From: Hysterangium stoloniferum
Taxonomy: Eukaryota > Basidiomycota > Agaricomycetes > Hysterangiales > Hysterangiaceae
Assembly (NCBI GenBank): GCA_015178975.1
Contig: WHVD01000093.1
Span: 280,061 to 344,060, forward strand
Length of the DNA stretch: 64,000 nucleotides
Direction: 5' to 3'
In this document: piece by piece, positions 5,919 to 48,941 of the stretch
Layout: each line of letters opens with the position of its first letter
Numbering within the stretch: position 1 is the stretch's first letter
Program-made: the position numbers and the translations under genes
Notes under the pieces: generated by a model
Databases searched by the model: none
Seen by the model: only the letters and a program-made list of their open reading frames with translations
Told to the model about the DNA's origin: nothing

Positions 5919-7178
5919 ATGCCACCAAGAAGAAAAGCACCCATACAGGAATTGTTACCTGGACCCTCGACTCTTCATTCCCCACTTACTTTGTATACCA
6001 GCCAGACACTCACAAACCAGCCAGATGCCACAGATGAACCCCATATTGAAGAAGTCCCAGAAAACCTGGATGAATCTGAGCACAAGGACAAGTCCATGGC
6101 CCCCAACAAGGGCAAAGGTGTCAAAAATTCCCCATCTAACGATTGACTGCCACTTTCAGATCCCACTTCCAAGTTGTTAGCAATCACTTTAGAAAGATTG
6201 ATGAATCACATGCTTGGAGAAGGCAATAAAAAGGATCTGGAACCTCCATAGTTAAAAGTCAACACTCCAGAACCCTTTATGGGTTCCAACCCCAACAAAC
6301 TTTCCACCTTCCTCATGCAATGTCACTTCAATTTCCACAATTGATCTGCCACATTCTCCATGGACTCCCAAAAAGTCAATTATGCACTCTCACACCTCTC
6401 AGGATCCGCATTGAAATGGTTCAAACTGGCTTTTAGTGGACTTTCCGAGGAAGAGCTGACCTGGCTTGAAGATTGGAATGCTTTTGTTGAGGAGCTAGAA
6501 ACAAACTTTGGCCCATATTACCCGACCAGAGAAGCCGAGAATAGCCTCACCAATCTTCATATGAAGGACAGCCAGCACATCACAGACTACATTGTCCAAT
6601 TCAACAATCTTGCAGCTCATTGTCAGTGGGGTGATCCCACTCTCCACCACCAGTTCTATACTGGTCTGCCATCCTGCCTGAAGGATGAAGTCTCAAAAGG
6701 TGAAGATGGCAAACCAAAAACACTGTCCCGTATGTGCCTCAAGGCTCAAAATGCAGATGTACACTATTGGGAACATCACATGGAAGTTGCCCATGAGACC
6801 TCTGTGGACAAGGCCAACAAGTTCATGGCCAACAAGCCCAACAACAACACCCCATCCACCAGCAACCAAAACTCCACGCACTCTGATTGGAAGAATGACA
6901 AGAAGTCTTCCAACAACAACAACAAAGGTCAACAGTCCAGCAAGCAAACTGGAAAATCTGACCTTACAGGCAAGCTTGGACCTGATGGCAAACTTAACCC
7001 ACAGGAAAGGCAGTGGCATATGGACAACAGCCTTTGTCTCTTGTGCAGAAAACCCAGTCATCGAGTTCTGGAATATCTGTTGGTGAAAGTAAACTCTGCA
7101 AAAGGTTGTACAGCCAAGATTTCCTCCACAGAATCCCCATTGAAAGACAAACCAGCTTCCAACCCAAAAAAAGAGTAA
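5919..7178 (+). pseudogene. gag: Gypsy gag polyprotein (three in-frame stops)
   Basis: Structural capsid protein of the retrotransposon. The frame starting at ATG 5919 is broken near 6144, 6250 and 6343, then stays open to 7178. The capsid core is clear: ALSHLSGSALKWFKL, then NFGPYYPTREAE, then DYIVQFNNLAAHCQW and FYTGLPSCLKDEV, which match the Retrotrans_gag family. A polar Asn/Lys/Ser linker follows, then a damaged zinc knuckle (CLLCRKPSHRVLEY) in which the last Cys is Tyr. Gag and pol are in different frames, joined near 7100-7180. Confidence 0.85.
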
Positions 7179-8380
7179 GCAACCCCATGGATTCCACATG
7201 GGTTGGGGGTTGCATTATCTCTCCACACATTCATGAGTTTACTTGTCTTAATGCATCTGCTCTTTTGAACTCTGACTCATTTTTTATTAAACTTATGTCT
7301 AATATGATCCTGAAATCCATTTTTTCAGCACTCATAGATTCTGGCTTGACTCATTGTTTTTTAGACACAAAGTTCATAAAAGAAATTCTGTGGTCAACTT
7401 ATCCAATAAACCCAGTTAGATTCTGACTTTTCAATGGCACAAGTAATTTGGTTATCACCCAAGCTTGCAACCTATCTATCCAGTTCCTGTGTGGAACATC
7501 TCAGTTGGTCACTTTCTATGTGACCCAGTTAGACTCAAGTTGCTGGGTTGTCCTAGGACATAACTGGCTTATCTGATACAATCCATTGATTGACTGGGTA
7601 TCAAACAGTATAACTTTTTGGACACCCACAGCACCCAAGACAACTGTATCTGACACGGCCTCCACGACACCCATGGCCTTCCACTGGAGGCACCCCAAGA
7701 TTTTTGGAGTTGCAAAACCTTCAGAAAATCTTGCTATTTGGCCAAATTTGCTAAGCATTCTTTGAACTGGAAAAACTGTTTGAAAATCTTGAGTTTTAGT
7801 AGGTTTTTCTGAGGACAAAAATTGTATCTGAAAACCCTAACAATGTTGATCAGGAAATTCTAAGGAAACGTTGTTGGAAATAGCCTATTTTCTGTGGATT
7901 TTCTAAATAGGAAAATTCTTAAAAAACCCTGGGTTTTGTTAGGGTTTTTCCACCCAACAGAATTCTATGAAAACTGTAATAATTTGCCTAGAGAAATCAA
8001 TTGAAAACCACATATTTCTACTCAATTTTTCTGCTCAGGGAATTGGGTGAAAACTGTAATTTTTTGCCAGGAAAATCTTGTGCCAAGACAAAGTTTTGTT
8101 AATGTTTTGTCAAGGGGAAAACCATAATGAAATTGACAATTTAATTATATGGGAAATCATTGAATAATTATAGATTTCAATAAGATTTTCCTTGGCCACA
8201 AACACTATGGAAATTCAAAAAATGTGTTGGTGAAATCTTGAAGAAATTAACATTTTCACATGAGTTTCTTAAAGGTTTTTCAAGATGAGAAACCTTGAAC
8301 TGATTTTTCCTGATTGAGCATGATTCACAATTGTTTGGAATGGTACAGTGGGATTCACAAATATTTAAGAGGATTGTTTT

Positions 8381-10397
8381 AGATTCAGGTAGATTCTTTT
8401 AGATTCAGATAGATTCTTTTAGATTCAGATAGATTCTTTGAGATTCTTTTAGATTCAGGTAGATTCTTGTAGATTCAGATAGATTCAGATAGATTCAGAT
8501 AGATTCTTTTAGATTCACATAGATTATTTTAGATTCAGGTAGATTCTTGTAGATTCAGATAGATTCTTTTAGATTCAGATAGATTCCTTTAGATTCACAT
8601 AGATTCAGATAGATTATTTTAGATTCAGGTAGATTCTTGTAGATTCAGATAGATTCTTTTAGATTCAGATAGATTCTCTTAGATTCATATAGATTCACAT
8701 AGATTCTTTTAGATTCACATAGATTATTTTAGATTCAGGTAGATTCTTGTAGATTCAGATAGATTCTTTTAGATTCAGATAGATTCTTTTAGATTCTCTT
8801 AGATTCAGATAGATTCTTTTAGATTCACATAGATTCAGATAGATTCTTTTAGATTCACATAGATTCTTTTAGATTCAGGTAGATTCTTTTAGATTCTTTT
8901 AGATTCTTTTAGATTCAGGTAGATTCTTTTAGATTCAGATAGATTCAGATAGATTCAGGTAGATTCTTGTAGATTCAGATAGATTCAGATAGATTCAGAT
9001 AGATTCTTGTAGATTCAGATATATTATTTTAGATTCAGGTAGATTCTTGTAGATTCAGATAGATTCTTTTAGATTCAGATAGATTCCTTTAGATTCACAT
9101 AGATTCAGATAGATTGTTTTAGATTCACATAGATTATTTTAGATTCAGGTAGATTCTTGTAGATTCAGATAGATTCTTTTAGATTCACATAGATTCAGAT
9201 AGATTCTTTTCGATTCAGATAGATTCTTTTAGATTCACATAGATTCTTTTAGATTCACATAGATTCTTTTAGATTCACATAGATTCTTTTAGATTCACAT
9301 AGATTCAGATAGATTCTTTTAGATTCTTTTAGATTCACATAGATTCAGATAGATTCACATAGATTCAAATAGATTCTTTTAGATTCACATAGATTATTTT
9401 AGATTCAGGTAGATTCTTGTAGATTCAGATAGATTCAGATAGATTCAGATAGATTCAGATAGATTCAGATAGATTCTTTTAGATTCACATAGATTCACAT
9501 AGATTATTTTAGATTCAGGTAGATTCTTGTAGATTCAGATAGATTCTTTTAGATTCAGATAGATTCTTTTAGATTCTCTTAGATTCAGATAGATTCTTTT
9601 AGATTCACATAGATTCAGATAGATTCTTTTAGATTCACATAGATTCTTTTAGATTCAGGTAGATTCAGGTAGATTCTTTTAGATTCACATAGATTCAGAT
9701 AGATTCTTTTAGATTCACATAGATTCAGATAGATTCTTTTCGATTCAGATAGATTCTTTTAGATTCACATAGATTCTTTTAGATTCACATAGATTCAGAT
9801 AGATTCTTTTAGATTCTTTTAGATTCACATAGATTCAGATAGATTCACATAGATTCAAATAGATTCTTTTAGATTCACATAGATTATTTTAGATTCAGGT
9901 AGATTCTTGTAGATTCAGATAGATTCACATAGATTCAGATAGATTCAGATAGATTCAGATAGATTCAGATAGATTCTTTTAGATTCACATAGATTCACAT
10001 AGATTCTTTTAGATTCACATAGATTATTTTAGATTCAGGTAGATTCTTGTAGATTCAGATAGATTCTTTTAGATTTAGATAGATTCTTTTAGATTCAGAT
10101 AGATTCTTTTAGATTCTCTTAGATTCAGATAGATTCTTTTAGATTCACATAGATTCTTTTAGATTCAGGTAGATTCAGGTAGATTCTTTTAGATTCACAT
10201 AGATTCAGATAGATTCTTTTAGATTCTTTTAGATTCAGATAGATTCTTTTAGATTCACATAGATTCAGATAGATTCTTTTAGATTCACATAGATTCAGAT
10301 AGATTCACATAGATTCAAATAGATTCTTTTAGATTCACATAGATTATTTTAGATTCAGGTAGATTCTTGTAGATTCAGATAGATTCAGATAGATTCT
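8381..10397 (+). repeat. Left minisatellite arm: 10-bp units AGATTCNNNN
   Basis: About 200 tandem units of exactly 10 bp. The hexamer AGATTC is nearly fixed and the remaining four bases come from a small set (AGAT, TTTT, ACAT, AGGT, TTGT; occasional AGATTATTTT). Every unit keeps the same phase for 2 kb, so all length changes were whole-unit steps. Multi-unit blocks recur within the arm, for example around 8730-8860 and 9510-9640, showing segmental amplification. Confidence 0.95.
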
Positions 10398-12604
10398 AGA
10401 ATCTATCTGAATCTATCTGAATCTATCTGAATCTACAAGAATCTATCTGAATCTACAAGAATCTATCTGAATCTACAAGAATCTATCTGAATCTACAAGA
10501 ATCTATCTGAATCTACAAGAATCTATCTGAATCTACAAGAATCTATCTGAATCTACAAGAATCTATCTGAATCTACAAGAATCTATCTGAATCTACAAGA
10601 ATCTATCTGAATCTACAAGAATCTATCTGAATCTACAAGAATCTACCTGAATCTAAAAGAATCTACCTGAATCTAAAAGAATCTACCTGAATCTAAAAGA
10701 ATCTATGTGAATCTAAAAGAATCTATGTGAATCTAAAAGAATCTATCTGAATCTAAAAGAATCTATCTGAATCTATGTGAATCTAAAAGAATCTATCTGA
10801 ATATATGTGAATCTAAAAGAATCTACCTGAATCTACCTGAATCTAAAAGAATCTATGTGAATCTAAAAGAATCTATCTGAATCTAAGAGAATCTAAAAGA
10901 ATCTATCTGAATCTATGTGAATCTAAAAGAATCTATCTGAATCTAAGAGAATCTAAAAGAATCTATCTGAATCTAAAAGAATCTATCTGAATCTAAAAGA
11001 ATCTATCTGAATCTAAAAGAATCTATCTGAATCTAAAAGAATCTATCTGAATCTAAAAGAATCTATCTGAATCTAAAAGAATCTATCTGAATCTAAAAGA
11101 ATCTATCTGAATCTAAAAGAATCTATCTGAATCTACAAGAATCTAAAAGAATCTAAAAGAATCTAAAAGAATCTACCTGAATCTAAAAGAATCTACCTGA
11201 ATCTAAAAGAATCTACCTGAATCTAAAAGAATCTATGTGAATCTATCTGAATCTACAAGAATCTACCTGAATCTAAAATAATCTATGTGAATCTAAAAGA
11301 ATCTAAAAGAATCTATGTGAATCTAAAAGAATCTATCTGAATCTAAAAGAATCTAAAAGAATCTATCTGAATCTATGTGAATTTAAAAGAATCTATCTGA
11401 ATCTACAAGAAACTACCTGAATCTAAAATAATCTATGTGAATCTAAAAGAATCTATCTGAATCTATGTGAATCTAAAGGAATCTATCTGAATCTAAAAGA
11501 ATCTAAAAGAATCTAAAAGAATCTATCTGAATCTATGTGAATCTAAAAGAATCTAACTGAATCTATGTGAATCTAAAAGAATCTACCTGAATCTAAAAGA
11601 ATCTACCTGAATCTAAAAGTATCTATGTGAATCTAAAAGAATCTATCTGAATCTAAGAGAATCTAAAAGAATCTATCTGAATCTACAAGAATCTACCTGA
11701 ATCTAAAATAATCTATGTGAATCTAAAAGAATCTATCTGAATCTATGTGAATCTAAGAGAATCTATCTGAATCTAAAAGAATCTACCTGAATCTACAAGA
11801 ATCTACCTGAATCTAAAATAATCTATCTGAATCTATGTGAATCTAAAAGAATCTATCTGAATCTATGTGAATCTAAAAGAATCTATCTGAATCTAAAAGA
11901 ATATATCTGAATCTAAAAGAATCTATCTGAATCTAAAAGAATCTAAAAGAATCTATCTGAATCTAAAAGAATCTATCTGAATCTAAAAGAATCTATCTGA
12001 ATCTAAAAGAATCTATCTGAATCTATGTGAATCTAAAAGAATCTAACAGAATCTATCTGAATCTAAAAGAATCTACCTGAATCTAAAAGAATCTACCTGA
12101 ATCTAAAAGAATCTATCTGAATCTAAAAGAATCTATCTGAATCTATGTGAATCTAAAAGAATGTATCTGAATCTAAGAGAATCTAAAAGAATCTATCTGA
12201 ATCTAAGAGAATCTAAAAGAATCTATCTGAATCTACAAGAATCTACCTGAATCTAAAATAATCTATCTGAATCTAAGAGAATCTATCTGAATCTAAAAGA
12301 ATCTATCTGAATCTACAAGAATCTACCTGAATCTAAAATAATCTACCTGAATCTAAAATAATCTATCTGAATCTATGTGAATCTAAAAGCATCTATCTGA
12401 ATCTATGTGAATCTAAAAGAATCTATCTGAATCTATGTGAATCTAAAAGAATCTATCTGAATCTATGTGAATCTAAAAGAATCTATCTGAATCTAACAGA
12501 ATCTATCTGAATCTATCTGAATCTATCTGAATCTATCTGAATCTCAAAGAATCTATCTGGATCTAAAAGAATCTATCTGAATCTAAAAGAATCTACCTGA
12601 ATCT
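10398..12604 (-). repeat. Right minisatellite arm: inverted 10-bp units
   Basis: About 220 units, the reverse complement of the left-arm unit (NNNNGAATCT; written here as ATCTATCTGA, ATCTACAAGA, ATCTAAAAGA, ATCTACCTGA, ATCTATGTGA). The same 10-bp phase continues across the centre. Unit order does not mirror the left arm: 10421-10640 is a homogeneous run alternating ATCTATCTGA with ATCTACAAGA, and 10960-11130 alternates ATCTATCTGA with ATCTAAAAGA. The arms have therefore expanded independently while the outer 709-bp repeats stayed matched. Confidence 0.95.
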
Positions 12605-14445
12605 AAAACAATCCTCTTAAATATTTGTGAATCCCACTGTACCATTCCAAACAATTGTGAATCATGCTCAATCAGGAAAAATCAGTTCAAGGTTTCTCAT
12701 CTTGAAAAACCTTTAAGAAACTCATGTGAAAATGTTAATTTCTTCAAGATTTCACCAACACATTTTTTGAATTTCCATAGTGTTTGTGGCCAAGGAAAAT
12801 CTTATTGAAATCTATAATTATTCAATGATTTCCCATATAATTAAATTGTCAATTTCATTATGGTTTTCCCCTTGACAAAACATTAACAAAACTTTGTCTT
12901 GGCACAAGATTTTCCTGGCAAAAAATTACAGTTTTCACCCAATTCCCTGAGCAGAAAAATTGAGTAGAAATATGTGGTTTTCAATTGATTTCTCTAGGCA
13001 AATTATTACAGTTTTCATAGAATTCTGTTGGGTGGAAAAACCCTAACAAAACCCAGGGTTTTTTAAGAATTTTCCTATTTAGAAAATCCACAGAAAATAG
13101 GCTATTTCCAACAATGTTTCCTTAGAATTTCCTGATCAACATTGTTAGGGTTTTCAGATACAATTTTTGTCCTCAGAAAAACCTACTAAAACTCAAGATT
13201 TTCAAACAGTTTTTCCAGTTCAAAGAATGCTTAGCAAATTTGGCCAAATAGCAAGATTTTCTGAAGGTTTTGCAACTCCAAAAATCTTGGGGTGCCTCCA
13301 GTGTTCCCAGCACCTGTGGCCTCGGTGGCCCCTGTGATCCCTACAGCACCCATGGCTTCCCCAGAACCCACAGCACCTCTGTCTATTTCTCTCATTAATG
13401 CTGCAGCATTCATTAGGGCTACAAAAATGGATGGATCCCAGGTGTTCACTATCAATTTGAAAATTGATGAAGCAACTGGACATTTTTTCAACTCTGGCAT
13501 CTGAGCAATCCGCTGATCTAGAAGGCATCCCCAAGAAATATCATGATTTCGTGGATGTTTTTAGTAAGTGTAAAGCTGACTGGCTTCCACCCCACAGAGA
13601 GTATGACTTAAAAATCGACCTCGAAGAAGGTGCCCAGCTACCCCTTGGACATACATATGTACTGTATCTACCCGCTGTCCTCCATGGAACTTTCTGCAAT
13701 CCGGGATTTCCTGGACAAACATTTGTCCATAGGTTTTATCAGACCCTTGAAGTCTCCTTTTGGAGCACCTGTTCTGTTTGTTAAGAAAAAGGATGGATCT
13801 CTTTGACTATGTGTTGATTTCAGAGGACTCAATGCTGTTACATGGAAGGATAAGTATCCACTCCCACTTATATCTGACCTGCTCGATGCTCCACAGAATG
13901 CCTGGATTTATACCAAGATAGACCTTAAACATGCCTACCACTTGGTCTGGATCTCCATGGGAGACAAGTGGAAAACCACTTTTAGGACCCAATATAGGGC
14001 TTTTGAGTGGTTGGTGATGCCCTTCAGGCTCACCAATGCTCCATCTGTTTTTCAATGTTTTATTAATGATATTTCTCTGACATGCTTGATGTATGCATCA
14101 TTGTTTATCTGGATGACATTCTTATCTACTCCAAGGATCCCATGGTACATCACAAACAGGTTCACAAAGTTCTCCAGAGACTCAGACAACATGGTTTATT
14201 CACAAATGGTAAAAAATGTACTTTGACATGGACTCTGTGGAATATCTAGGTTTCATAATGGGACCCAACAGACTCCATATGGATGAAGCCAAAGTACAAG
14301 TCATCAAAGATTGGCCAGAACCCAGAAAAGTCAATGATATACAGTCTTTCCTTGGCTTTGCCAATTTTTACTGACGGTTTATCCACAGATATTCCAAAAT
14401 CACAGTTCCCCTTAATTGTCTTACACACAAGGGCACTCTGTGGAA

Positions 14446-14882
14446 GGGCCACCTCAGTAGAGCCTGTGGTACTCACACTAGACCAACTAACAGAGGGATA
14501 TCCAGAGTATATTAGGTAGCTACTAGATACAGATAAGGACTACTCACCTAACAGAGGGATATCCAGAGTATATTAGGTAGCTACTAGATACAGATAAGGA
14601 CTACTCACCTAACAGAGGGATATCCAGAGAGAAAAGGATAAGGAGGCACCTCTGCTAGATGTTCCGAAACATGGGGGTGTCTAAAAATAGAATGACAGCT
14701 TACCCTCAATGGTCCATAACTATCTACTCTATCCTAGAATATTCCTAGAGGATGGAACAGTCCTCTGAAAAATGTGAGAAAAATATAGGAAACAATATAA
14801 AATAGCCTCTAAGGGTTAGTAAGTATAGACATAACAAAAATCAAGAGATAAGACATAGAATGTCCCCTTACACTCTGTGGAA
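14446..14882. mobile_element. 437-bp insertion in gypsy RNase H region, possible Mutator-type MITE
   Basis: The gypsy reading LTHKGTLW (to about 14443) resumes as LWNFDDKCQKAF at about 14876. The direct repeat CACTCTGTGGAA is present at 14434-14445 and again at 14871-14882, so a 437-bp piece was inserted with a target duplication of about 9-12 bp. That length fits Mutator-like elements. The ends, AAGGGCCAC and GTCCCCTT, are weakly inverted. It has no coding capacity and contains a 61-bp tandem repeat. Confidence 0.6.
14489..14629 (+). repeat. 61-bp tandem repeat, 2.3 copies
   Basis: The 61-bp unit starting AACAGAGGGATATCC begins at 14489, 14550 and 14611, the third copy being partial. The first two copies look identical, so the duplication is recent. 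It lies wholly inside the 437-bp insertion. Confidence 0.9.
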
Positions 14883-41624: not shown

Positions 41625-44600
41625 ATGATGATTCCTATAATTAGGCGTCTGAAAAGAGCCCTTCTTATATACCCTGATGGGTTTGAACCTCTGGGCTCTT
41701 TTCTGATCTCTCCGCAGCAGCTACTGTCTAAGGATGCTCCATCGGCTGATACATTCCAATCTGATCCTCAAGAACAAACGAGCGGTCAGCATTTCGGGAT
41801 CAAGGTACTTTCACCGGGCATTTCTCCGACAATCGAGTAAGCAGTTAGATATAAATATCAAATTTTGCTGCCCACCGGGACTCAACTGCGGATCTTCCAG
41901 CATCATCGCCATCCATGGGTTGGATGGACATCGTGAGGCATCTTGGACAGCACTCAACGGTAAACTCTGGCTTCGCGACTTCTTACCCAAGGATGTACCT
42001 TGTGCCAGGATTTTAACATATGGTTATGATGCCTACACCCAGAACACGGCTACATCATCCACGCAGACCTTGGATAGTCATGCAGAGAGCTTTCTGGCAC
42101 GCTTGTCTGCATTCAGAAAGAGGTCAGATACTACGGTTTGTACAACTCATATATGCGATTCTGTTTCTTTCTCATAAAACCGCTTCAGAAATGGCCTATA
42201 ATTTTTATTGCTCACAGCGTCGGAGGAATTATTCTCAAACACGTAGGTTGATTTCTGTAATACATGTCAAGCCTTATTTCAATATTGGGGTTTGTCAGGC
42301 TTTGATACAAGCTAGTCAGGCACACGAAGGCCACCTGGTGGAACACAAGTGGATCGCTGTGTCTACATATGGCATTTTATTCCTCAGCACACCACATCAA
42401 GGCACAAATGCTATTACAAACCTGGCTAATCAACACTTGCAACATGGATCACTATCCAGCGAAACTAATAATATATTGTTAAAACATTTAATCTCCAACT
42501 CTGAGTGGCTGCAACAGGAGTCAGCTTTTTACAATGCAATCAGTGCAAATTTCCGCACCAAACTCTTTCATGAAACCCTGCCGACCGTTCTCCCTGATAA
42601 AAGTTCTCAAATGGTAAGTCTACATATGTGTCTATTGGTGCAAATCTATAGTGCTATTCCCAGATTATTCCTAAATTATCTGCTGTAATCCCCGGTGCTA
42701 TTGATATGGAGGTGGTAGGCATGTCTAAGGATCATTATGGAATGATCAAATTTGCATCTCAGAGTGATGATGACTTCATTCTGATATTATCTGTCATAAA
42801 GAATATGATTGAGAGTGCCTCATCTGTAGTGCAACATCAGTGGTCCAAGTTTGAGCAGACTGGTAAGCAGTATCTATAAAAAATAGGCTGCATATTGATA
42901 TTATTTACCAAGCAGAGATCACCTCTACAGCAGTGACATATATGGCTAAACTCCGTCCTAGTCCAAGGTTTTTAGGACAGGAGGAACATATTACAACATT
43001 GAAGAAATTTTTTGCCCCTGACAATTCCCAAAAATGGAGGCATTTCCTTTTATATGGTATGGCAGGAGTTGGAAAAACTCAGATATGTTTGAAGTTCATT
43101 GAAGATGTACTAGATAATAAATAGTAAGTTATCTGCTACTTCATTGCTGCTGCTGATAAATTCTAATTAATAATAAGTGATTATTGGAGAATTATATGGA
43201 TTGATGCTACTAACACAGTGACATTAGAGGATGGCTTTACCAGTATTGCAGATGACCCTCAAGCTAAAGCAATAGGTGTTAAAAGGTCTAGTAATGCTGT
43301 CCTGACATGGCTTGCTCACCATAGAAGGAAGTGGCTTCTTGTGTTTGATAATGCTGATGGGATGGATGGTGAAGTCCATAACTATTTGAAACATCTCAGG
43401 CCAATTCATGCCTTGATTACAAGCCGGAACTGTGGACTTAGTGCCCATGTAACATCATACATAGAACTTCTGCCAATGGATGAGGATAAGGCTGTTTCTT
43501 TGTTTCACACTGCAGCATTACTTTCAAATTGTTCTGATACTGCAGTGATTAAACTATCAAGGCATATTGTAAGAACATTGGGCTGTTTGCCTCTTGCTGT
43601 AGATATTGCAGGAGCAACTATATCTACTGGATTGTGCACAACCTATGACTATCTTAAAATGTATCAAACACAGAGGGTACACTTGCTGGATGGTGAAGAC
43701 CCTTCTCTAAAGGGAGCAACAGGATACAACCACACTGTTTATAGTGCTTTGAATATCTCCTACAATCTTATTGAAAGGGCAGCCACCTCTTCTAAAAATG
43801 CACAGGATGCTCTATTACTTCTTAAAGTTTTGGGTTTCTTCCACCATCAAAATATTATGGAAACTATATTTAAACAGGCAGCAGAGTCAGCTCCTGCATT
43901 AATATACAATGAAAACTTACCAACTACATCACATGATCTGCCCATTCATCTACTTAAATGCAATGAGGATGGGCAATGGGGAAATATTGCATTTAGACAG
44001 GCTATGCAAATTCTTTGTGATTATTCATTACTGTCCAAAGATGGACTTGCAGACAGGTTTCTATCATGGACAATGCATCCTGTGATTCACACTTGGAGTA
44101 GAGACAAGGCTTTGTCAAGTGATAGTTCTGGGTACTTAAGAATAGCAAGGGCTATCATAGTAGGCTGTATCCCACTTGGTAATGCTCTAGAGGATATTAT
44201 GGCACGACGAGGGCTTCTCCTTCACATTGAGGCATTTAGATGCAATAGTGGTAGCAGGGAAGATCAAGATGTCTACTATGATGACATGCTGAGAAGATTC
44301 TCAATGGTGTTAGGAGAGTTTGGTCACTGGAAAACTGCAAAAAATATGCAGGAGGTATTGATGGAAAAAAGAGAGACTTTCCTAGGTATAGAGCACCATG
44401 AGACACTCATTGCCAAGGCCAGTCTGGCAAACACCTACCATGATCTGGGAAGTTCCAAGAAAGCAGAGGTGCTTGAGCTTCAGGTGTTGGGAGCCAGGCA
44501 GAACATATTAGGTCCAGAGCACCCTGATACTATAGCAGCCAAGGCCAATTTGGCATGCACCTACAGTGAATTGGGAAGGCACAAGGAGGCAGAGGTGCTT

Positions 44601-47600
44601 GACCTTCAGGTGTTGGAAGCCTGGCAGAGCATACTAGGCCCAGAGCACCCTGACACTATTGCAGCCAAGGCCAATCTGGCATGCATCTACCATACATTGG
44701 GAAGGCCCAAGGAGGCAGAGGTGCTTGACCTTTGGGTGTTGGAAGCCAGGCAGAGCATACTAGGTGCAGAGCACCCTGACACCATAGCAGTCAAGGCTAA
44801 TTTGGCATGCACCTACCGTACATTGGGAAGGCCCAAGGAGGCAGAGGTGCTTGAGCTTCAGGTGTTGGAAGCCAGGCAGAGCATACTAGGTCTAGAGCAC
44901 CCTGACACTTTAATGGCCAAGACTAATTTGGCATGCACCTACCGTATGTTGGGAAGGCCCAAGGAGGCAGAGGTGCTTGAGCTTCAGGTGTTGGAAGTCA
45001 GGCAGAGCATACTAGGTCTAGAGCACCCTGGCACTGTATTGGCCAAGGCCAATTTGGCATGTACCTACCGTGTGTTGGGAAGGCCCAAGGAGGCAGAGGT
45101 GCTTGACCTTCAGGTATTGGAAGCTAGGCAAAGCATACTGGGTCCAGAGCACCCTGACACTTTAATGGCCAAGGCTAATTTGGCATGCACCTACCGTGCA
45201 TTGGGAAGGCCTAAGGAGGCAGAGGTGCTTGAGCTTCAGGGATTGGAAGCCAGGCAGAACATACTAGGTCTAGAGCACCCTGACACTTTAATAGCCAAGG
45301 CCAATTTGGCATGCACCTACAGTGAATTGGGAAGACCCAAGGAAGCAGAGGGACTTGAGCTTATGGTAGTAGAAGCCAGGCAGAGTATACTAGGCCCAGA
45401 GCACCCTGAGACTTTAATGGCTAAGGCCAAGTTGGCATGCACCTACCGTGTGTTGGGAAGGCCCAAGGAGGCAGAGGTACTTGAGCTTCTGGTGTTGGAA
45501 GCCAGGCAGAGCTTACTAGGTCCAGAGCACCCTGACACTATAGCAGCCAAGGCCAATTTGGCATGCACCTACAGTGAATTGGGAAGGCACAAGGAGGCAG
45601 AGGTGCTTGACCTTCAGGTGTTGGAAGCCTGGCAGAGCACACTAGGTCCAGAGCACCCTGACACTATTGCAGCCAAGGCCAATTTGGCATGCATCTACCA
45701 TACATTGGGAAGGCCCAAGGAGGCAGAGGTGCTTGACCTTTGGGTGTTGGAAGCCAGGCAGAGCATACTAGGTGCAGAGCACCCTGACACCATAGCAGCC
45801 AAGGCGAATTTGGCATGCACCTACCATACATTGGGAAGGCCCAAGGAGGCAGAGGTGCTTGAGCTTCAGGTGTTGGAAGCCAGGCAGAGCATACTAGGTC
45901 TAGAGCACCCTGACACTTTAATGGCCAAGACTAATTTGGCATGCACCTACCATGTGTTGGGAAGGCCCAAGGAGGCAGAGGTGCTTGAGCTTCAGGTGTT
46001 GGAAGTGAGGCAGAGCATACTAGGTCTAGAGCACCCTGGCACTGTATTGGCCAAGGCCAATTTGGCATGCACCTACCACATGTTGGGAAGGCCCAAGGAG
46101 GCAGAGGTGCTTGACCTTCAGGTATTGGAAGCCAGGCAAAGCATACTAGGTCCAGAGCACCCTGACACCATAGCAGCCAAGGCCAATTTGGCAAAAACCT
46201 ACAATACATTGGGAAGGCCCAAGGAGGCAGAGGTGCTTCAGCTTCAGGTGTTGGAAGCCAGGCAGAGCATTTTAGGTCTAGAGCACCCTGACACTTTAAT
46301 GGCCAAGGCTAATTTGGCATGTACCTACCGTGTGTTGGGAAGGCCTAAGGAGGCAGAGGTGCTTGACCTTCAGGTATTGGAAGCCAGGCAAAGCATACTG
46401 GGTCCAGAGCACCCTGACACTTTAATGGCCAAGGCTAATTTGGCATGCACCTACTGTGTATTGGGAAGGCCTAAGGAGGCAGAGGTGCTTGAGCTTCAGG
46501 TGTTGGAAGCCAGGCATAACATACTAGGTCTAGAGCACCCTGACACTTTAATAGCCAAGGCCAATTTGGCATGCACCTACAGTGAATTGGGAAGACCCAA
46601 GGAAGCAGAGGGACTTGAGCTTATGGTGTTGGAAGCCAGGCAGAGCATACTAGGCCCAGAGCACCCTGAGACTTTAATGGCCAAGGCCAATTTGGCATGC
46701 ACCTACCATGTGTTAGGAAGGCCCAAGGAGGCAGAGGTGCTTCAGCTTCAGGTGTTGGAAGCCAGGCAGAGCATACTAGGACCAGAGCACCCTGACACTT
46801 TAATGGTCAAGGCCAATTTGGCATGCACCTACTGTGTGTTGGGAAGGCCCAAGGAGGCAAAGATGCTTGAGCTTCTGGTATTGGAAGCCAGGCAGAGCAT
46901 ACTAGGTCCAGAGCACCCTGGCACTTTGATAGTCAAGGCCAATTTGGCATGCACCTACAGTGAATTGGGAAGACCCAAGGAGGCAGAGGGACTTGAGCTT
47001 CAGGTGTTGGAAGCCAGGCAGAGTATACTAGGTCTAGAGCACCCTGGCACTGTATTGGCCAAGGCCAATTTGGCATGCACCTACCACATGTTGGGAAGGC
47101 CCAAGGAGGCAGAGGTGCTTGACCTTCAGGTATTGGAAGCCAGGCAAAGCATACTAGGTCCAGAGCACCCTGACACCATAGCAGCCAAGGCCAATTTGGC
47201 AAGAACCTACAATACATTGGGAAGGCCCAAGGAGGCAGAGGTGCTTGAGCTTCAGGTGTTGGAAGCCAGGCAGAGCATACTAGGTCTAGAGCACCCTGAC
47301 ACCTTAATGGCCAAGACTAATTTGGCATGCACCTACCATGTGTTGGGAAGGCCCAAGGAGGCAGAGGTGCTTGAGCTTCAGGTGTTGGAAGTCAGGCAGA
47401 GCATACTAGGTCTAGAGCACCCTGGCACTGTATTGGCCAAGGCCAATTTGGCATGTACCTACTGTGTGTTGGGAAGGCCCAAGGAGGCAGAGGTGCTTGA
47501 CCTTCAGGTATTGGAAGCTAGGCAAAGCATACTGGGTCCAGAGCACCCTGACACTTTAATAGCCAAGGCCAATTTGGCATGCACCTACCACATGTTGGGA

Positions 47601-48941
47601 AGGCCCAAGGAGGCAGAGGTGCTTGACCTTCAGGTATTGGAAGCCAGGCAAAGCATACTAGGTCCAGAGCACCCTGACACCATAGCAGCTAAGGCCAATT
47701 TGGCAAGAACCTACAATACATTGGGAAGGCCCAAGGAGGCAGAGGTGCTTGAGCTTCAGGTGTTGGAAGCCAGGCAGAACATACTAGGCCCAGAGCACCC
47801 TGAGACTTTAATGACCAAGGCCAATTTGGCATGCACCTACCATGTGTTGGGAAGGCCCAAGGAGGCAGAGGTACTTGAGCTTCTGGTGCTGGAAGCCAGG
47901 CAGAGCATACTAGGTCCAGAGCACCCTGATACCATAGCAGCCAAGGCCAATTTGGCATGCACCTACCGTACATTGGGAAGGCCCAAGGAGGCAGAGGTGC
48001 TTGAGCTTCAGGTGTTGGAAGCCAGGCAGAGCATACTAGGTCTAGAGCACCCTGACACTTTAATGGCCAAGGCTAATTTGGCATGCACCTACTGTGTGTT
48101 GGGAAGGCCCAAGGAGGCAGAGGTGCTTGAGCTTCAGGTGTTGGAAGCCAGGCAGAGCATACTAGGTCCAGAGCACCCTGACACTATAGCAGCCAGGGCC
48201 AATTTAGCAAGCACTTACAGTACATTGGGAAGGCCCAAGGAGGCAGAGGTGCTTGAGCTTCAGGTGTTGGAAGCCAGGCAGAGCATACTATGTCTAGAGC
48301 ACCCTGACACTTTAATGGCCATGGCTAATTTGGCATGCACCTACTGTGTGTTGGGAAGGCCCAAGGAGGCAAAGATGCTTGAGCTTCTGGTGTTGGAAAC
48401 CAGGCAGAGCATACTAGGTCCAGAGCACCCTGGCACTTTGATAGCCAAGGCCAATTTGGCATGCACCTACAGAGAATTGGGAAGACTCAAGGAGGCAGAG
48501 GGACTTGAGCTTCAGGTGTTGGAAGCCAGGCAGAGTATACTAGGTCTAGAGCACCCTGGCACTGTATTGGCCAAGGCCAATTTGGCATGCACCTACCACA
48601 TGTTGGGAAGGCCCAAGGAGGCAGAGGTGCTTGACCTTCAGGTATTGGAAGCCAGGCAAAGCATACTAGGTCCAGAGCACCCTGACACCATAGCAGCCAA
48701 GGCCAATTTGGCAAGAACCTACAATACATTGGGAAGGCCCAAGGAGGCAGAGGTGCTTCAGCTTCAGGTGTTGGAAGCCAGGCAGAGCATACTAGGTCTA
48801 GAGCACCCTGACACTTTAATGGCCAAGGCTAATTTGGCATGCACCTACCATGTGCTGGGAAGGCCCAGGGAGGCAGAGGTGCTTGAACTTCAGGTATTGG
48901 AAGCCAGGCAAACCATATGTGAAGAGTTGTGGAAGTTCTGA
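41625..48941 (+). CDS. NLR-like STAND protein: alpha/beta-hydrolase, NB-ARC, 36 TPR units
   Basis: Likely a fungal NOD-like receptor (signal-dependent NTPase for non-self recognition or programmed cell death). Exons: 41625-41836, 41901-42135, 42189-42242, 42299-42613, 42664-42862, 42916-43123, 43178-48941; six GT-AG introns of 50-64 nt; all phases agree; 2,328 residues. The N-terminal alpha/beta-hydrolase-like domain has DIIAIHGLDGHREASWT (about residue 70), the nucleophile Ser in FIAHSVGGIILK (about 160) and FLSTPHQGTN (about 200). The NTPase has Walker A GMAGVGKTQ (about 386) and Walker B WLLVFDNADG (about 460), then LPLAVDIAGA and WTMHPVIHTW. From residue about 812 there are 36 TPR units of kinesin-light-chain type. 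No stop or frame break in 7 kb argues it is functional. A Tc1 element lies 149 bp beyond the stop. Confidence 0.85.
44391..48926 (+). repeat. 126-bp (42-residue) TPR coding repeat, 36 units
   Basis: Unit 1 begins at 44391 (EHHETL) and unit 36 at 48801, exactly 35 x 126 bp later, so no unit has gained or lost a base. Consensus pieces are EHPDT, AKANLACTY, LGRPKEAEVL, LQVLEARQSILG. Variation is confined to a few sites: the residue after EHP (D/G/E), the pair after T (IA, LM, VL, LI), the two residues after TY, and the DLQ/ELQ/QLQ/DLW/ELL/ELM positions. Blocks of units repeat: units 2-6 resemble 10-14, 7-9 resemble 17-19, 14-15 resemble 22-23 and 34-35, and 20-23 resemble 32-35. Confidence 0.95.

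Follow-up and report, generated by a model that had tools for sequence, protein, structure and literature searches.

A high-copy family of foldback DNA transposons with CACTG..CAGTG ends and arrays of 10-bp units in Hysterangium stoloniferum

We analysed a 64,000-nt stretch of the genome of the fungus Hysterangium stoloniferum (contig WHVD01000093.1, positions 280,061 to 344,060; hereafter, the window), in which a long palindromic element interrupts a gypsy-type sequence. The element probably belongs to a high-copy family of non-autonomous foldback DNA transposons, moved in trans by an EnSpm/CACTA-type transposase and enlarged by array growth, with one sublineage in which the centre is spacer-free and the arms are alike. 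In the mechanism that we consider most likely, a putative transposase of this type (CMC group) would cut and paste the unit in trans, recognise the CACTGGAGGCACCCC end and leave 3-bp duplications. Each arm would be made up of a flanking domain of ~700 bp and an array of 10-bp units, the arrays having probably grown from the inner edge of the flanking domain by duplication of blocks of units. The arms of most readable copies would meet at a short shared spacer, and loss of this spacer in a small sublineage would have created a perfectly palindromic centre. Spacer-free arms may then mostly have been kept alike, or recently made alike, by copying of one arm onto the other, which is the weakest step of the proposal.

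The element of the window was shown to be a mobile unit leaving 3-bp duplications, as the first-pass annotation of this sequence had claimed. It is bounded by CACTG..CAGTG termini and a duplicated TTC, and the same termini were present in all of the 15 end pairs compared, each with an exact 3-bp target-site duplication of varied sequence. Further exact 3-bp duplications were found at C533:443632 (TGT/TGT) and at two small members, L041 and L053; a 201-bp copy, L031, was without duplication. No duplication of 8-10 bp, of the Tetris-like or Mutator type, was observed, as the window bases outside TTC differ and the duplication was 3 bp long in the 15 pairs. The interrupted sequence is of gypsy type, according to a Retrotrans_gag match at 6360-7178 and to the label given in the first-pass annotation. 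When its flanks were joined with one TTC, the junction was crossed by all 40 scored genomic copies (436 candidates; 85-100% identity), which provides the empty site and upholds the earlier claim as far as restoration of the gypsy sequence is concerned. The frame was open for 100 codons across the joined flanks, with further stops close by in the surrounding gypsy frame.

All own-genome searches were run on the 111-Mb genome of H. stoloniferum. The terminal 30-mer, at three mismatches or fewer, gave 463 matches (230 forward and 233 reverse) versus 0 + 0 for the reversed control, so that a chance origin of the termini is excluded. The 709-bp outer part of the arm is not unique either, with at least 40 scored genomic copies among 517 candidates. 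Of the 463 termini, 126 were placed on contigs, and neighbours within 15 kb were oriented head to head in 42 cases ('+-'), compared with one '-+' and one '++'. These 42 pairs ranged from 2,326 to 11,955 bp, with a median of 4,632 bp, confirming the expected copies of varied length (2.3-12.0 kb). By our estimate, ~230 elements at the median size would occupy about 1 Mb of sequence (~1% of the genome). A triple of array units had 4,103 + 4,475 genomic matches (control, 54 + 36), and all 100 places among the matches listed fell inside one element.

The anatomy of the window copy, summarized in Table 1, corresponded to the earlier description of 709-bp inverted repeats enclosing two inverted arrays. 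Over their outer 709 bp, the arms had a single mismatch, at position 7870; beyond it, the arms were colinear up to 8424, and the next mismatch (8425) was located within the array. The full arms, of 2,716 and 2,906 bp, aligned with 2,534 identities, 162 mismatches and 230 gap positions. Long inverted repeats take up most of the element, tandem repeats of variable number lie within the arms of this and other copies, and the unit is mobile with a target-site duplication, which are the features of a foldback transposon. The element was said to encode nothing, and the program-made list of open reading frames indeed contained none of at least 150 aa overlapping it. Counted in steps of 10 bp from GGGATTCACA, the arrays comprised 205 steps on the left and 224 on the right; the spacing of the GATTC core was 10, 20 or 30 bp only in both, hence no register slip is visible in them. 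Tandem Repeats Finder gave concordant array limits (8372-10397 and 10398-12613). The centre was an exact palindrome, 28 bp to each side, and the central 116 nt, as single-stranded DNA, had a hairpin z of -15.7, a value to be read with the reservation that any such palindrome would fold so.

Table 1. Positions, in the window, of the foldback element and its parts
Feature	Position	Strand	Evidence
Left target-site duplication TTC, 3 bp	7679..7681		flank sequence; empty site in 40/40 scored gypsy copies
Whole foldback element, 5,622 bp, CACTG..CAGTG	7682..13303		sequence and genomic copies
Left arm flanking domain, 709 bp; one base apart from the right one	7682..8390	+	
Left array of 10-bp units TAGATTCNNN	8380..10397	+	
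Spacer-free centre TAGATTCTAGAATCTA	10390..10405		exact in C159, C539; 1 mismatch in C533, C134
Right array of 10-bp units, inverted	10398..12613	-	
Right arm flanking domain, 709 bp	12595..13303	-	
Right target-site duplication TTC, 3 bp	13304..13306		flank sequence

Among the 422 units of the window arrays, positions 1-6 were T-A-G-A-T-T at 99-100% and position 7 was C in 403, while the final three letters were mainly TTT, AGA, ACA, AGG or TTG. The rare changes were spread over core and variable positions, and no selection on the unit core was visible in these 422 units; a larger table of 3,471 units, filtered for a GATT-like core, was not used for this test. The transition from flanking domain to array keeps the unit phase (GGGATTCACA AATATTTAAG AGGATTGTTT TAGATTC), and the unit could therefore have started at the edge of the flanking domain. 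Within that domain, ~700 bp of which precede the array, the commonest 8-mer (5 copies) was reached in 49 out of 300 shuffles, and was not significant as a putative binding site. A possible likeness between the TnpA site of maize and the GACTC/GACAC units was dropped, as only an unrelated paper came up in the literature. FB transposons have 10-bp repeats of their own.

The flanking domain was common, at ~86-89% over 470-700 bp, to elements with other units, such as GACTCTTTGC and TGTGACACTT, whose periods of 10 and 20 bp were less regular than in the window copy. Six end loci had no arrays; these included two complete, small and palindromic copies, L041 (1,154 bp) and L053 (377 bp), and the 201-bp L031. 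In four frames of L034, L035 and L051, no transposase domain was detected by Pfam, except for a weak, sub-cut-off helix-turn-helix in L051. At the other end of the size range, the 8.0-kb member L076 (C533:443582-451711) had identical outer arms of 758 bp, and its arms further held an inverted 1.5-kb GC-rich sequence (61% G+C), 94.8% alike, with frames open on both strands. A 12-kb member carried related recruited sequence in both arms and an insertion that, from its frames, looks like a nested DIRS-type element (no Pfam match). Both exact pairs, 12 kb and 8 kb, were considered as transposase-bearing partners and rejected, as they are longer foldbacks with other 10-bp units. The arms of L073 (C442), likewise a foldback relative, also contained inverted copies of a GC-rich sequence of ~1.5 kb, with frames open on both strands. 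Between C496:148136-153541 and C156:60625-68166, neither the left arms nor the right arms showed any difference (0 out of 715 sites each), but the total lengths were different and so, in part, was the unit order; this is the mark of recent transposition and fast array change.

The centre was readable in 15 elements (the window copy and 15 loci, of which L003 is C533, L011 is C539, and L026 and L054 are one element). New here are a short shared spacer, CACCCTAAACCATAAAA, found between the arms at 11 loci corresponding to 10 of these elements, and a spacer-free sublineage. The remaining five centres, those of the window, C533, C539, C527 (L028) and C35 (L046), were not of the spacer type. Genome-wide, the pattern of units switching to face inward was matched 111 times on each strand, versus 7 in the control, overlapping matches being counted separately. 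Among the 50 switch places listed, 33 fell in 20 paired elements, each with one switch point, located at 0.17-0.77 of the element length. The switch span was 30/40 nt, the spacer type, in 18 of these 20, 16 nt in C159 and, at its shortest, 24 nt in one C80 copy; the centre class of most switch points was read from this span and not from the letters. The spacer-free centre of the window copy recurred exactly in C159 and C539, which makes three places in all, while C533 and C134, the latter a candidate member of the family, each had one mismatch to it. Four or five copies, the window copy among them, form the spacer-free sublineage; the centre probably arose once, since it is common to the window, C533, C539 and C159. 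The centre of C527 was also spacer-free: compared with its reverse complement it had one mismatch in 23 positions, and its exact half-length was 11.

Two other observations concern the centres and arrays. In C136:81738-87536, both ends carried the rarer variant at position 28, yet the centre had the spacer span. On contig C262, CCCTAAA repeats were arrayed close to the contig end (L072, 3083-3165), and one or two such units occurred inside or between element arrays (L028, L030); CCCTAAACC was seen in the spacer of many elements. CCCTAAA may be the telomere repeat of H. stoloniferum, and its presence here may go back to break repair.

The two arms of one element were then compared over 715 sites. 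They differed at 1 site in the window copy, 1 in C533, none in C257 and 4 in C159, and were, among the arms compared, each other's nearest sequence in these four. In contrast, C496, C156, C223, C64 and C69 had two arm types, 16-18 differences apart, and the nearest sequence of each arm was the same type in another copy; within a type, 0-1 differences separated the C496, C156 and C223 pairs compared, and 3 separated C64 from C69. In the tree, the two arms of an element were grouped in 4 out of 15 elements (window, C533, C257 and C159), and the two arm types of the other five fell into two clades (supports of 0.62 and 0.96). The locus L010 (the C68_R locus) was left out of the tree and retained in the nearest-neighbour table, and L054 was treated as L026. 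When unit order was compared instead, the own partner ranked first of 19 for the window, C533 and C257, and the same type in another copy was far ahead for C496, C156 and C223.

Thirteen elements had known arms and a known centre. The spacer-free ones had 1, 1, 4 and 7 arm differences and the spacer-bearing ones 5, 13, 16, 18, 18, 18, 37, 39 and 44, a separation equalled or exceeded by 2 of the 715 arrangements in an exact rank test, which is suggestive and not a probability, because the copies are related by descent. C496 and C257, whose centre was not read, and C527 and one C80 copy, each with the sequence of one arm available, were outside this comparison. Several results did not fit an association between spacer loss and alike arms. 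C539 is spacer-free, yet its arms differed at 7 sites and were not nearest to each other. C527 is spacer-free, yet its termini differed at position 28, a marker of arm type, which means that both arm types are combined in it; ends of both types were likewise present in the C80 copy whose centre spans 24 nt. Conversely, among spacer-bearing copies, the arms of C224 differed at just 5 sites and those of C76 were mutually nearest (13 differences, one tie). When ranked by unit order, the own partner came 8th in C539, 3rd in both C159 and C224, and 12th in C64. When C527 was added to the rank test at an assumed 16, 17 or 18 differences, 8, 10 or 21 of 2,002 arrangements were as extreme; with both C527 and the C80 copy at an assumed 17, there were 42 of 5,005.

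The nature of the transposase was approached from the ends and from a partial search for a coding partner. The CAC..GTG termini and the 3-bp duplication found in each of the 15 pairs agree with fungal EnSpm families, described with these two features (PMC12730594), and in this respect the earlier label, CACTA-like, stood; the autonomous CACTA partner that it called for was not found in the partial search. Within that search, the genome gave 12 matches to PF02992, 68 to Plavaka and 71 to KDZ, those to Plavaka and KDZ including fragments; all 12 PF02992 loci were read with 1.5 kb on each side, and four Plavaka loci were read. The outcome is a point against an EnSpm/CACTA enzyme, within the limits of a partial search with 126 of the 463 termini placed. 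No coding partner with the family ends was identified among these loci; in the 12 PF02992 loci, no 15-mer came nearer to the terminus than 3 mismatches (reached in three homologous loci, inside the sequence common to them), and the wider flanks of L070 and L071, both of which match PF02992 and have several long frames, contained no terminal inverted repeat pair above 9-10 out of 14 letters, taken as chance. Ends identical over the first 13 bp but divergent beyond them were matched 2 times, versus 9 in the reversed control, hence nothing above chance. A Plavaka element (L074, L075) was examined as a partner and rejected, both copies having CATCAGG as the left end and L075 having CCTGATG as the right end; the CATCA..TGATG termini of PlavakaB (PMC12730594) differ from the CACTG..CAGTG of the window element. 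Two weaker Plavaka-like loci showed no convincing terminal inverted repeat. L074 and L075 were 99.8% alike over 7,390 bp, and are evidently recent copies. The putative CACTA link of the family is taken from the ends and the 3-bp duplication only.

Several alternatives were considered for the structure itself. Long, near-perfect palindromes are hard to assemble and the arrays of the two arms are unequal in length, as might be expected if the element were an assembly artefact or a chance inverted duplication of two unrelated insertions. This would hardly produce 42 head-to-head pairs versus two of other orientation, exact 3-bp duplications in the 15 pairs or an empty site, and the position of the switch points along the elements, mostly with the spacer span, is unlike a mirrored assembly; we consider both versions extremely improbable, as opposed to a foldback transposon. 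The likeness of arms in the window sublineage could also stem from recent inverted duplication of one arm instead of continuing arm conversion, and the extension of arm identity from the end into the array, where it fades, is consistent with this, as are the C257 arms, identical over 715 bp around a centre that is not of TCTAGA type at one mismatch or fewer. Against it, the arms of the window copy and C533 differ by 1 within a copy and by 5-7 between copies, despite their shared centre. We regard such a duplication as a possibility, although not the favoured one. As for the broader proposal, that Agaricomycetes harbour EnSpm/CACTA-derived foldbacks in which 10-bp arrays replace the entire interior and spacer loss yields a palindrome with mutually homogenising arms, the counter-example of C527 led us to lower our estimate slightly, and it remains tentative and rather doubtful.

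The same foldback anatomy might be moved by a transposase outside EnSpm/CACTA, such as a divergent Plavaka-like enzyme or an undescribed CMC relative. No EnSpm partner emerged from the partial own-genome search, Plavaka and KDZ matches outnumbered those to PF02992, and rust EnSpm transposases with CAC..GTG ends are reported to resemble Plavaka (PMC12730594). On the other hand, the Plavaka element of this genome ends in the PlavakaB signature and not in CACTG, and a 3-bp duplication is unlike the 8 bp given for Zisupton (PMC12730594) and the 8-10 bp given for Tetris (PMC4079207); we judge this alternative unlikely, and retain an EnSpm/CACTA-type enzyme as the better candidate. Finally, the arrays may have been selected as additional transposase-binding sites, one helical turn apart, instead of being a by-product of slippage. 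The strict 10-bp phase of the window copy, the 10- and 20-bp periods kept, less regularly, by relatives with other units, the transposase-binding sites said to be carried by the repeats of Galileo terminal inverted repeats (PMC4079207) and the subterminal repeats of CACTA ends (PMC8978399) are in favour. Changes in the window units that are as even over the core as elsewhere, register slips in other copies, and L053, which has a duplication but no array, are not, and selection of this kind seems conceivable without being the expected explanation.

Elsewhere in the window, a frame at 119-826 had a helix-turn-helix of Tc1/Tc3-type transposases (PF01498). A 61-bp repeat (2.3 copies, 100% identity), indicating a recent duplication, was located at 14487-14629, ~1.2 kb downstream of the element. 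An open frame of 1,907 aa at 43218-48941 ran through a tandem repeat of 126 bp (36 copies, 87% matches), the consensus of which resembles fungal tetratricopeptide repeats.

If the proposed sequence of events is true, spacer loss would amount to a natural experiment in which a palindrome drives gene conversion within a transposon. Comparing spacer-bearing copies, often with two inherited arm types, with spacer-free copies, whose arms are mostly alike, would test whether a palindromic centre triggers arm exchange. Foldbacks are known from animals and plants, with D. melanogaster and sea urchin named; most apparently belong to Mutator, some exceptions aside, and separate lineages may evolve the structure independently of each other (PMC4079207). 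A fungal family that is high in copy number and has CACTA-type ends would show this architecture arising in another superfamily.

The first-pass annotation knew of no described family with this architecture, a statement that is not supported, as the foldbacks Tetris (PMC4079207) and Galileo (PMC4168063) share the build; among the titles and abstract openings of the open-licence PMC literature searched, there was neither a 3-bp, CACTG-type fungal foldback nor any foldback family of like build that was fungal or of CACTA type. According to the cited sections, Tetris of Drosophila virilis consists of a flanking domain of up to 866 bp and tandem-repeat, inner and middle domains, is described without a conserved open reading frame, and makes 8-10-bp duplications (PMC4079207), and a 9,021-bp copy of Galileo, of the P superfamily, has arms of 4.2 and 4.7 kb with tandem repeats and is described without a transposase segment (PMC4168063). 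The window family resembles both in its long inverted repeats, flanking domain, variable tandem repeats and lack of a conserved open reading frame. It also has short relatives sharing its ends, as in the Tetris/DAIBAM case (PMC4079207), and the sequence recruited by its 8.0- and 12-kb members parallels arm growth in Galileo, in which tandem repeats expand and internal sequence is recruited (PMC4168063). It differs from Tetris in its 3-bp duplication and CACTG ends, and from the foldbacks described in these sections in its 10-bp unit (versus ~140 and 220 bp), its fungal host and its 463 termini. With EnSpm/CACTA elements (CMC) it shares termini and duplication length; unlike them, the window element has no transposase, consists mostly of repeats starting ~700 bp from the end, has full-length inverted-repeat arms, and has no autonomous relative among the loci of the partial search. 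PlavakaB also belongs to the CMC group, with 2-3-bp duplications (PMC12730594); in contrast to the window element, L074 and L075 are coding, end in CATCAGG..CCTGATG and are without long inverted repeats. L053 and L041, small and palindromic, are similar to miniature inverted-repeat transposable elements, whereas the window copy has 15 times the length of L053 and carries repeat arrays.

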